A stretch of 64,000 nucleotides of DNA, from the NCBI GenBank assembly GCA_016744375.1, contig JADGEM010000005.1, positions 9,632 through 73,631 of the forward strand, in the 5' to 3' direction. The stretch comes from Gammaproteobacteria bacterium. Its GTDB lineage: Bacteria; Pseudomonadota; Gammaproteobacteria; GRL18. Of the stretch, positions 12,068 to 15,350 are shown piece after piece. Both the position numbers and the translations under genes were made by a program. Below the pieces are notes generated by a model. It saw nothing but the letters and a program-made list of their open reading frames with translations, made no database searches and was not told the DNA's origin. How positions within the stretch are numbered: the stretch's first letter is position 1; every line of letters begins with the position of its first letter.

Positions 12068-12436
12068 ATGTCTGAACAAAAACCAACACCAACTGAAATT
12101 AACTTACACCAGAAATCACGTGAGCTGGAGATTGCTTTTGATGAGGGCAGTCGTTTTCATTTTTCCAGTGAATTTCTAAGAGTCCATTCACCCTCGGCAG
12201 AAGTCAGAGGTCACGCTCCGGGCGAAGAAACACTGCAGGTCGGAAAAGAAAATGTCAATATTAAGGAAATAGAGCCAGTTGGTAATTATGCGATAAAAAT
12301 TGTCTTCACTGATGGCCACGACAGTGGTATTTTCTCATGGGACCTATTCTATGAATATGGTCAGAACCAGGAAAGAATGTGGCAGGATTATTTACAAAAA
12401 CTCAAAGATGCGGGGCATGAACGTCAGCTTAATTGA
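12068..12436 (+). CDS. DUF971 family protein
   Basis: A 122-residue protein of the DUF971 family, the small domain also found at the N terminus of gamma-butyrobetaine hydroxylase-like enzymes. FSSEFLRVHSPSAEV and AIKIVFTDGHDSGIFSWDLF are the recognisable conserved blocks. It follows hslVU, as in pseudomonads and many other gammaproteobacteria. The biochemical role is unclear; a part in iron-sulfur or iron handling has been suggested for such domains, but nothing here shows it. Its last 13 bases overlap the 3' end of the oppositely oriented next gene. Confidence 0.9.
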   Translation: MSEQKPTPTEINLHQKSRELEIAFDEGSRFHFSSEFLRVHSPSAEVRGHAPGEETLQVGKENVNIKEIEPVGNYAIKIVFTDGHDSGIFSWDLFYEYGQNQERMWQDYLQKLKDAGHERQLN

Positions 12437-12807
12437 GACTGAATCCAGCGTTCGGCATCCGCACGACTACTGAAAGACTGGCTTTTATAAACGAAGGATT
12501 CAACATAAGCCTGCCAGAGCTCAGATAAACTGAATTCCAGGTTTTTTGACTCAATAATCGCCATGATTATCGTGTTATTCACTTGTGCGGCTTTATAATC
12601 CAGGCGACTGATTTTTTGAATATCTGACGCTGTCACATCATATTCAGTACACATCGATTTATCTATTATATGATAGCGTTGTCTACTCAGCTTATCCGGG
12701 GCATAAATTTCCTGCTGGGCAGCAATGAGATCTTTGCCCGTTACAAGACCACTGGCCAGGATCTCAACACCTCTATCATTATCAATTAAATTTACTTTTA
12801 TTGGCAT
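12424..12807 (-). CDS. Hypothetical protein, STAS/SpoIIAA-like size and pattern
   Basis: A 127-residue protein with no signal peptide or membrane segment. The pattern of alternating strands and helices (VNLIDNDRGVEILASGLVTG, then YHIIDKSMCTEYDVTASDI, then NTIIMAIIESKN) resembles small STAS/SpoIIAA-like proteins, but I cannot identify a family with certainty. It is convergent with the DUF971 gene and overlaps it by 13 bases. The start ATG has a weak ribosome site. The protein may or may not be linked to the ATPase operon that starts on the other strand 320 bases away. Confidence 0.65.
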   Translation of the reverse strand: MPIKVNLIDNDRGVEILASGLVTGKDLIAAQQEIYAPDKLSRQRYHIIDKSMCTEYDVTASDIQKISRLDYKAAQVNNTIIMAIIESKNLEFSLSELWQAYVESFVYKSQSFSSRADAERWIQSQLS

Positions 12808-13125: not shown

Positions 13126-13323
13126 ATGTCGGGTGCTGTGAATCCAAAACCTCTGAATATGACTGAGCGTAAAACAACCATCGAAGAGTTCACTCACTTC
13201 TGCCATGAAGAAAAAGAACGCCGAATGAACTCTGGCGAAGGTTTTGATGAAAAATCCTTCGAGGAAGCAATAGAGCTGACTTTGCGCAAGCTGCAGGTTC
13301 TTGAAGATGAGGGCTGGGTATGA
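13126..13323 (+). CDS. Small acidic helical protein, first gene of the ATPase operon
   Basis: A 65-residue protein starting at an ATG with an excellent AAAAGGAG ribosome site. It contains EEFTHFCHEEKERRMNSGEG and a C-terminal helix of FEEAIELTLRKLQVLEDEG type; it is acidic and has no membrane segment. Its stop overlaps the start of the ATPase gene by 4 bases (TATGA), so the two are translationally coupled and probably made in fixed ratio. No family was recognised. Inference: a partner or regulator of the ATPase. It is too short for more. Confidence 0.75.
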   Translation: MSGAVNPKPLNMTERKTTIEEFTHFCHEEKERRMNSGEGFDEKSFEEAIELTLRKLQVLEDEGWV

Positions 13324-15110
13324 TTATTCATAGCATTAAGGCGCACAATGTCCTTAAATACGAAAATCTGAATCTTCAGGATTTACCGCAAGAAGGTGTT
13401 ATTGCTATCAGTGGTTTTAATGAATCAGGCAAAAGTACTATCGGTGAAACCATCTGCTTTGCTTTATTTGGCCGAACATTCTCTATTGATGAAGACGACC
13501 TGGATAAAATTATTCGTTGGGGCGAGAGTGACTGTAGTGTGACCATTCGTTTTAGCAATCAGAAGACTGATAGCGCCAGTGATGAACAATATGCCATTAC
13601 CCGCATGTTGGACTGTGATGGTAATCATTCAGCAAAATTATATAAAGTTTATAATGAAGAAAACCCCATTGCACGAGGTATAGAACGAGTAGAAGAAGCC
13701 CTGTTTGAACTCACTTCAGTTGAATTTGATGAATTTATTGAATCTTTCTATCTGGCCCAAAGAGAAATTACCACACCACATCCTCATAGCTACGCGCTCA
13801 AGACCATGGCAGGGATTGCCACAATGGAGTATTGCGAAGATGGAATCTATGAAGACATTCAACAGGATATAGAAGCAAGCGAAGCTTTGAACAGTCGAAT
13901 TGCTCAAATTGAAGAGGAACTCGATGATCTTGGCATAGAAGACGGACACATTGATGCACTTTCAATACAACACGATAAAGCCCTTGAGGATAAGGTTCAA
14001 ACGGATAAAATATGTGCTGATTACCTGACTTCTATTGATGAATACAATGAGACGGCCCCTAAACTCAGTCACTATTTGAAGAAAAAAGGCCGTGGTTCTT
14101 TTTGGCGCTTCATCTATTTTATGCTTGCTGTAGGTGCTTTTGCATTATGGTGGGTTTTAATAAAAATGCCTGAGGCCGCAATACATGGCCAAATCAGCAC
14201 GTTTGTGCAAGCCAGTCTGCCTCAGGTTACGGCTGATCACTATCCTTATCTTCTTTACATTGGCGGGGCTGCGACTTTTCTGTTTCTTGTGTCTTGGGCG
14301 GCTATTATTAGTCATCGTGGAAACATTGAACGTCTCGGTGTGGCAGGCAAGGAATTGGCAGATAAGATTTCCGCCCTTAATGAATCGGCTGATGACACAC
14401 AACAGTCCCAGATCACTTTGATCTCAAAATCCCAGATATCAGAAAAGCAATTGAGTGAAGTGACTGAAAATGATCTTACTAATCTGACTGCTCAGAAGGA
14501 AAAACAGGTGGATGAAATCAGCAAACTATCTGCTGAATTAGTGATTGAACGTGATCGTGTCAAACGTGCAGGTGAGCTGCAGGATAAAATTGATGATCTG
14601 CAAAGTCAGATTTATGATAAAGAATCAAGGAATCAAATCAGAGATCTGGCAACTGAGATATTGGGTGGTGCGACCCGACATTTGTCAAAACGTTTCAACC
14701 ATATTATCCGCGATCATGTAGGAAAAACTCTGCCTCTGTTCACTGATAATCGATATGAACATCTGCAAATTGATGACGATCTGACTGTTCGGGTGTTCTC
14801 GAATGAAAAGCACGATTTTATGGATCTGGATGAAATCTCCAGTGGTACTCAACGGCAGATTATGCTGGCTGTACGCCTGGCTCTTTCGCAGGAAATGGTC
14901 AGTCGAAAGGTACAGAGCAAACAGTTCCTGATCCTGGATGAACCATTTGCTTTCTTTGATGAAGAGCGCACGCAACGCTCATTAATGGTCTTGCCATCAC
15001 TGAGTGATGATTTATCCCAAATTTGGATCATTGCCCAGTCATTTCCTGAAGGAATGAGCTTTCAGCATACGATATACTGTGAGCGGGAGGCAGTGACCAA
15101 TAATACATGA
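13320..15110 (+). CDS. SMC/Rad50-like ATPase with a transmembrane hairpin in the coiled coil
   Basis: A 596-residue ABC-type ATPase with split head. The N-terminal part has Walker A GFNESGKST (32-40) and a Q-loop candidate, YLAQRE (144-149). A coiled-coil segment follows at about 180-240. Two hydrophobic segments at about 261-282 and 308-331 are separated by about 25 residues. A second coiled coil runs about 340-440, and the C-terminal head carries the signature SSGTQRQ (507-513) and Walker B FLILDEP (536-542). With both heads cytoplasmic, the hairpin would cross the membrane where Rad50 has its zinc hook and SMC its hinge. The usual switch histidine after Walker B seems replaced by Q573 (WIIAQS). 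No nuclease gene of the SbcD/Mre11 type is adjacent. The ATPase assignment is firm; the biological role is unknown. Confidence 0.9.
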   Translation: MIIHSIKAHNVLKYENLNLQDLPQEGVIAISGFNESGKSTIGETICFALFGRTFSIDEDDLDKIIRWGESDCSVTIRFSNQKTDSASDEQYAITRMLDCDGNHSAKLYKVYNEENPIARGIERVEEALFELTSVEFDEFIESFYLAQREITTPHPHSYALKTMAGIATMEYCEDGIYEDIQQDIEASEALNSRIAQIEEELDDLGIEDGHIDALSIQHDKALEDKVQTDKICADYLTSIDEYNETAPKLSHYLKKKGRGSFWRFIYFMLAVGAFALWWVLIKMPEAAIHGQISTFVQASLPQVTADHYPYLLYIGGAATFLFLVSWAAIISHRGNIERLGVAGKELADKISALNESADDTQQSQITLISKSQISEKQLSEVTENDLTNLTAQKEKQVDEISKLSAELVIERDRVKRAGELQDKIDDLQSQIYDKESRNQIRDLATEILGGATRHLSKRFNHIIRDHVGKTLPLFTDNRYEHLQIDDDLTVRVFSNEKHDFMDLDEISSGTQRQIMLAVRLALSQEMVSRKVQSKQFLILDEPFAFFDEERTQRSLMVLPSLSDDLSQIWIIAQSFPEGMSFQHTIYCEREAVTNNT

Positions 15111-15350
15111 GTGCTTTCTGAAATATCAGCAAAAATGACCAAAATGACTGCAAAAGTTAAACTGGTGCAATCGCTAGGCTTAACCTTTGCCAGCGCCCCT
15201 TCTTTTGTTTTTAAATTATCACGAATTGTCTCAAAGGTGGTTAATCCGGTAGGTGATACATGGAATTATGTGCACAACACCTCTGAAACTGTGTTGATTC
15301 ATGGATGGAAGCTATCTAAATCATTGGGAAAAATAATCGGTCCCTTATAA
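15111..15350 (+). CDS. Possible small third gene of the ATPase operon
   Basis: A 79-codon frame begins with GTG immediately after the ATPase stop codon. The product is basic with amphipathic helices (VKLVQSLGLTFASAPSFVFK, then TVLIHGWKLSKSLGKIIGPL). Codon choice looks coding, but the nearest GGGAGG is about 20 bases upstream of the GTG, so expression would depend on coupling. Its last 52 bases overlap the 3' end of the convergent metallo-hydrolase gene. No family was recognised. It could be a membrane-associated partner of the ATPase, or a chance frame. Confidence 0.45.
   Translation: MLSEISAKMTKMTAKVKLVQSLGLTFASAPSFVFKLSRIVSKVVNPVGDTWNYVHNTSETVLIHGWKLSKSLGKIIGPL

Follow-up and report, generated by a model that had tools for sequence, protein, structure and literature searches.

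A Rad50-like ATPase with a predicted membrane hairpin is co-inherited with a 65-residue partner in Pseudomonadota

The present work describes two adjoining plus-strand genes, which encode a Rad50-like split ABC ATPase of 596 residues (13320..15110) and a 65-residue partner protein, p65 (13126..13323). Coordinates refer to the window, that is, the whole 64,000-nucleotide stretch of gammaproteobacterial DNA that was analysed. Judged from sequence and structure models, the pair combines a Rad50-type head and short arms with a membrane hairpin in the ATPase, and adds an obligate p65 that is itself a predicted helix hairpin. A first-pass annotation had proposed a set of three genes at this site, namely the ATPase with a small partner on either side, and had suggested that an ATPase of the DNA-loop or end-processing type would thereby be attached to the inner membrane; what we find are two genes only, the ATPase and p65.

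Results

The ATPase has a Rad50-type head and an invariant glutamine at the switch position

The ATPase matches the Pfam families SMC_N (4e-14) and AAA_23 (1e-12), and a profile built from 12 of its homologues retrieved archaeal Rad50 from the PDB with an E-value of 7e-33, SMC (6e-4) and SbcC (5e-3) following far behind. An AlphaFold model of the ATPase that drew on 81 family sequences (mean pLDDT 87) contains the strands and helices of the head. The top Foldseek match of this model was Mre11-bound Rad50 (5dny, 2e-18), with 3av0, 3auy, other Rad50 structures, SMC and LmuB of the Lamassu system ranking lower. The catalytic motifs lie exactly where the first-pass annotation had placed them, in a head that PDB profile and Foldseek mark as Rad50-like: Walker A (GFNESGKST) at residues 32-40 (13413..13439, +), the ABC signature (SSGTQRQ) at 507-513 (14838..14858, +) and Walker B (FLILDEP, followed by FAFFD) at 536-542 (14925..14945, +). 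Invariant across 81 sequences are G32, N34, E35, G37 and K38 in the first of these, S507, G509 and Q513 in the second, and D540, E541, F543 and D547 in and behind the third. The same holds for Gln573 (15036..15038, +), which occupies the switch position where Rad50 has a histidine; the earlier reading of this residue as a glutamine was thus correct. Its invariance suggests, as a prediction, that hydrolysis is slow or dependent on a partner.

Two coiled-coil arms emerge from the predicted head. The first covers residues ~166-260 (13815..14099, +; model helices 166-203 and 210-282), and the second, together with the coil base, residues ~332-475 (14313..14744, +; model helices 305-353, 359-369 and 375-475). 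In the model, helix 210-282 comprises both arm and first membrane segment without a break, and helices 305-353 and 375-475 run back from the tip. Homologues with as little as ~25% identity still have the catalytic motifs, hairpin and Gln573; this conservation extends over ~80 non-redundant sequences and two classes of Pseudomonadota. In comparisons with unsaturated dS, dN/dS against relatives was 0.06-0.09, indicating purifying selection. By its head sequence, the protein falls among the Rad50-like coiled-coil ABC ATPases.

A predicted membrane hairpin forms the tip of the arms

The tip of the arms consists of a predicted membrane hairpin of ~70 residues: transmembrane helix 1 (residues ~261-282; 14100..14165, +), a short loop (~283-307; 14166..14240, +) and transmembrane helix 2 (~308-331; 14241..14312, +). 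Both helices were assigned from hydropathy and positive-inside statistics over 82 homologues, while the loop, which includes a short model helix (287-299), is presumed to be periplasmic from charge and spacing statistics. Among the 82 non-redundant homologues (557-781 residues), 81 have both hydrophobic segments above 1.3 on the Kyte-Doolittle scale. The best hydrophobic pair at the tip averages 2.06 and 2.08 over the 82, as compared with a median of 1.1 for the highest window elsewhere in the same proteins, and the two hydropathy windows are spaced by a median of 28 residues. Mean net charge is +4.0 in the 15 residues before helix 1 and +2.3 after helix 2, as opposed to -1.3 in the loop; likewise, lysine and arginine number 4.5 and 3.4 in the flanks versus 1.2 in the loop. 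From this positive-inside pattern, a topology follows in which both arms and the heads would reside in the cytoplasm. In homologues with longer arms (about 742-781 residues), the hairpin is still found at the tip. We also looked in these conservation data for signs that the segments are something other than membrane helices. None appeared, and the two transmembrane segments predicted earlier for the arm tip are upheld by hydropathy and charge conservation in 81 of 82 homologues. The CxxC motif of a zinc hook was missing from 115 of 116 members, with any CxxC at all present in only one. As far as sequence statistics go, the tip is a conserved two-helix membrane anchor that obeys the positive-inside rule and stands in place of hook or hinge.

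An anchor of this kind might also serve a trans-envelope ABC ATPase with a mechanical or signalling role, in which head closure would be passed on through rigid arms to the hairpin and its periplasmic loop, and whose target would be an envelope partner instead of DNA, comparable to the mechanotransmission of FtsEX and MacB. Hairpin and loop are indeed conserved, including the loop prolines P284 (63 of 81 sequences) and P301 (66 of 81) and tryptophans 277 and 303 (most members), the arm helices enter the membrane without a break in the model (210-282, 305-353), and periplasmic or transport genes occur nearby (PstS-like in 6 of 82 loci; SulP). However, the loop comprises only ~25-28 residues and holds no domain, the nearest heads are those of the DNA-acting Rad50 and SMC proteins, not of transporter ATPases, and no envelope gene is consistently linked to the pair. 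We consider an envelope function unlikely, yet deserving of some weight.

p65 is an obligate partner, whereas the downstream frame lacks support as a gene

The first-pass annotation had pointed out a small gene overlapping the ATPase by four bases, and this gene proved to be a real partner: p65 sits directly upstream of the ATPase in 79 of 79 named loci and, overall, in 119 of 119 homologous loci (~100 of them distinct, the second class of Pseudomonadota included). The match was weak in a single one of the 119 (L178), where the motif is still recognisable. The overlap between p65 stop codon and ATPase start (ATGA) recurs in 108 of 116 pairs and suggests that the two genes are translationally coupled. 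Of 370 genomes sampled from the class, 35 had the ATPase and 33 had p65, and all 33 carry the ATPase with p65 adjoining; no genome in this sample had p65 without the ATPase. As to the two ATPase-only genomes, the gene lies at a contig end in one (G379) and is a partial match only in the other (G293). Homologues lacking the 65-residue gene were looked for in other genomes, and this search left the pairing intact. Like the ATPase, p65 evolves under purifying selection (dN/dS 0.04-0.10 against relatives, in comparisons with unsaturated dS). p65 is an obligate, co-inherited partner of the ATPase.

The AlphaFold model of p65 (pLDDT 83, above 90 in most of the core) predicts a helix hairpin with helices at 18-36 and 42-61, and the family shares the motif F..[YF]C..E.ERR.NSGE.FDE..[YF]..A..L.L.KL. 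p65 had neither a Pfam family nor a PDB sequence match, and a Foldseek search against PDB folds returned nothing better than an E-value of 5. We considered p65 as a detached Rad50-binding domain of SbcD and rejected this candidate at the level of sequence, for a profile comparison with the C-terminal helix-loop-helix of SbcD was not significant and shuffled controls scored higher. Residue covariation between p65 and the ATPase reached a maximum z of 6.6 as compared with 7.8 in permuted data (~50 effective sequences); some of the top pairs map to the coil base, yet are not significant, with the observed maximum inside the permuted range.

On the other side of the ATPase, directly after its stop codon, the first-pass annotation had assigned a second small partner to a 79-codon frame (15111-15350). 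A translated search with this frame matched the window only and found no homologue in any locus. Its DNA similarity is confined to the last ~50 bases, and the alignable part is 17 codons long and runs antisense to the 3' end of a convergent metallo-beta-lactamase-like gene. Even genome G005, whose ATPase homologue is 86% identical, lacks the frame next to that gene. On present sequence evidence, the 79-codon frame is not supported as a gene.

The pair is kept vertically on the chromosome

A scan with one genome per species yielded 233 confirmed ATPase loci. The best 80 of these belong to Gammaproteobacteria or unclassified Proteobacteria and include Sedimenticola, Candidatus Thiodiazotropha, tubeworm and lucinid symbionts, Chromatiales, Arenicellales and relatives of the window's genus. 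Of the 15 genus relatives, 14 carry the ATPase, and the one exception is a genome that is 64% complete. In our genome sample, the gene occurs in 20 of the 272 genera of the class, and a sample of the phylum added 22 genomes of another class. Searches of plasmids and viral contigs for the ATPase found none. Within the window's genus and family, the majority of members have the pair downstream of hslVU and a DUF971-type gene. Other lineages show different neighbours, and only ATPase and p65 remain together. A comparison of 82 loci revealed neither a common third gene nor a conserved nuclease next to the pair. The neighbour clusters consist of housekeeping genes and provide no link to DNA repair; HrpB is found downstream in some lineages. 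Constant among changing, ordinary chromosomal neighbours and absent from the plasmids and viral contigs searched, the two genes show the pattern of a chromosomal pair that is passed on vertically, rather than that of a defence island.

This pattern bears on a role in anti-phage or anti-plasmid defence, in which the Rad50-like head would sense foreign DNA and either the hairpin or p65 would be the effector. PADLOC models do match the ATPase (mad3, 4e-19; LmuB, 1e-13), and the LmuB structures among the Foldseek matches fit in with this, but any Rad50-like head gives such mad3 and LmuB matches. No effector gene adjoins the pair, and the near-constant place that it holds in the window's genus and family, downstream of hslVU, the dN/dS of 0.04-0.10 and the lack of matches in the plasmids and viral contigs searched speak against a defence system, which strikes us as very improbable.

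Several local features accompany individual loci. A ribonuclease-like gene of ~606 residues, RNB-like by reading, is found co-directional upstream of the pair in 21 of 82 loci; the Sedimenticola/Chromatiales group (L068-L070, L073-L090 and others) often has this arrangement. In the second class (L177-L185), a gene for a PstS-like periplasmic phosphate-binding protein follows the ATPase in most loci, usually within a few bases. One genome has, in addition to an intact ATPase copy, a second one that is a TGA-interrupted C-terminal fragment (G003:C73:202-645, L028). Within the window, a 127-residue ORF on the minus strand (12424-12807) is convergent with the DUF971-type gene and overlaps its end by 13 bases; it is 71% identical in L033 and present only as fragments in L031, L032, L034 and L045, has no confident Pfam family and is apparently decaying.

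Nucleases of carrier genomes have their own ATPases

The first-pass annotation had remarked that an SbcD-type nuclease is missing beside the ATPase, in agreement with the neighbour comparison above. Such a nuclease might instead be borrowed from elsewhere in the genome (SbcD or YhaO-like), which would make the protein an ATPase for processing DNA ends or hairpins. Some SbcD-type match was obtained in 29 of 40 carriers, 13 of them above the family cut-off and 16 weaker, yet the remaining 11 gave no match. Besides, we inspected seven SbcD or YhaO-like loci, and the nuclease already adjoins a large ATPase of its own in most of them; the genome of the window itself encodes, on another contig, a canonical SbcD together with an SbcC that has the CxxC hook. 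A borrowed nuclease thus appears improbable. Since more than a quarter of the carriers (11 of 40) gave no SbcD match and the nucleases inspected mostly lie beside their own ATPase, a nuclease is not a required partner of ATPase and p65. As a separate system, the L199, L201 and L204 carriers encode a YhaO-like nuclease beside a YhaN-like ATPase of 1033-1178 residues with a switch histidine.

Discussion

Relation to known coiled-coil ATPases

With Rad50/SbcC, the ATPase shares the split ABC head (Walker A, Q-loop, signature, Walker B, D-loop) and two coiled-coil arms made from one chain, and the predicted helix hairpin of p65 is comparable to the helix-loop-helix of Mre11. On the other hand, it has a membrane hairpin for the zinc hook, much shorter arms, no nuclease partner in the operon and Gln573 in place of the switch histidine. 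SMC proteins likewise have an ABC head and coiled-coil arms that fold back at the tip, but the ATPase lacks a hinge, its arms are several times shorter and its sequence match to SMC is far weaker than to Rad50. Nor do kleisin or KITE/HAWK genes lie beside it; only p65 is conserved there, and may have a distant kleisin-like role.

YhaN-like proteins (Pfam AAA_27), the partners of YhaO, also possess Rad50-like heads, and membrane-spanning segments are reported for some of them. However, they keep the switch histidine and adjoin YhaO, whereas our ATPase has no YhaO-type phosphoesterase as a neighbour and did not match AAA_27 (PF13514) at E-values up to 1; no match to this family was found in its own genome either. 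A profile of the ATPase family scored five of its members, all of them in the profile itself or its close relatives, at 543 bits or more, and other Rad50-like and YhaN-like proteins of the carriers at no more than 32 bits. Finally, LmuB of Lamassu is a Rad50-like ATPase of ~600-650 amino acids with short arms (PMC10586767) and hence resembles our protein in size and build. Yet many LmuB homologues have a zinc hook, LmuB is accompanied by LmuA and LmuC, and no membrane hairpin has been described for it; neither the LmuA effector nor LmuC was found among the neighbour clusters of our ATPase. Because the pair differs from Rad50/SbcC in hook, nuclease and switch histidine, from SMC in the hinge, from YhaN in Pfam family and neighbours and from Lamassu in its partners, and is set apart by the wide gap in profile scores, we regard ATPase and p65 as a distinct family that has so far gone undescribed. 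In the openly licensed literature, we found no description of such a membrane-anchored Rad50-like protein or pair.

A possible mode of action

By extension from the Rad50 and SMC families, two ATPase heads would meet in the cytoplasm with two ATP between them. The anatomy suggests that the membrane hairpins would provide a second contact between the two copies, the inner membrane thereby doing the job of the zinc hook. The substrate clamped by the engaged heads would most likely be double-stranded DNA, as in those families, and, as arm 1 with its about 95 residues spans at most ~14 nm, this substrate would be held near the inner membrane, within about 14 nm. p65 may bind the head or the coil base and set the ATP cycle, bringing no nuclease; here we argue by analogy with the Mre11 helix-loop-helix, which touches the Rad50 coiled coil at its base (PMC7260605); p65, an element of the same kind by prediction, would sit in the corresponding place. 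We put this reading, a nuclease-free, inner-membrane-tethered Rad50-like ATP clamp that probably acts on DNA and is controlled by p65 at head or neck, just short of an even chance. The wider proposal goes further, towards a new class of nuclease-free Rad50-like DNA clamps that dimerise through the inner membrane, are run by a helix-hairpin subunit and tie chromosomal DNA to the membrane, both in gammaproteobacteria (sulfur oxidisers and symbionts) and in a second class of Pseudomonadota; we advance it more tentatively, as possible rather than probable.

SMC and Rad50 machines are seen as soluble rings or clamps, with a hinge or a zinc hook as the closure. If the clamp reading is true, the present family would be a conserved one that closes via a membrane hairpin instead, with a 65-residue subunit replacing nuclease or kleisin, and would offer a minimal system for asking what the tip and the head-bound subunit do. 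The occurrence of the pair in cultured bacteria such as Sedimenticola selenatireducens opens it to experiment. For the bacteria that carry them, ATPase and p65 could, on the same reading, be a direct physical link from DNA to the inner membrane.
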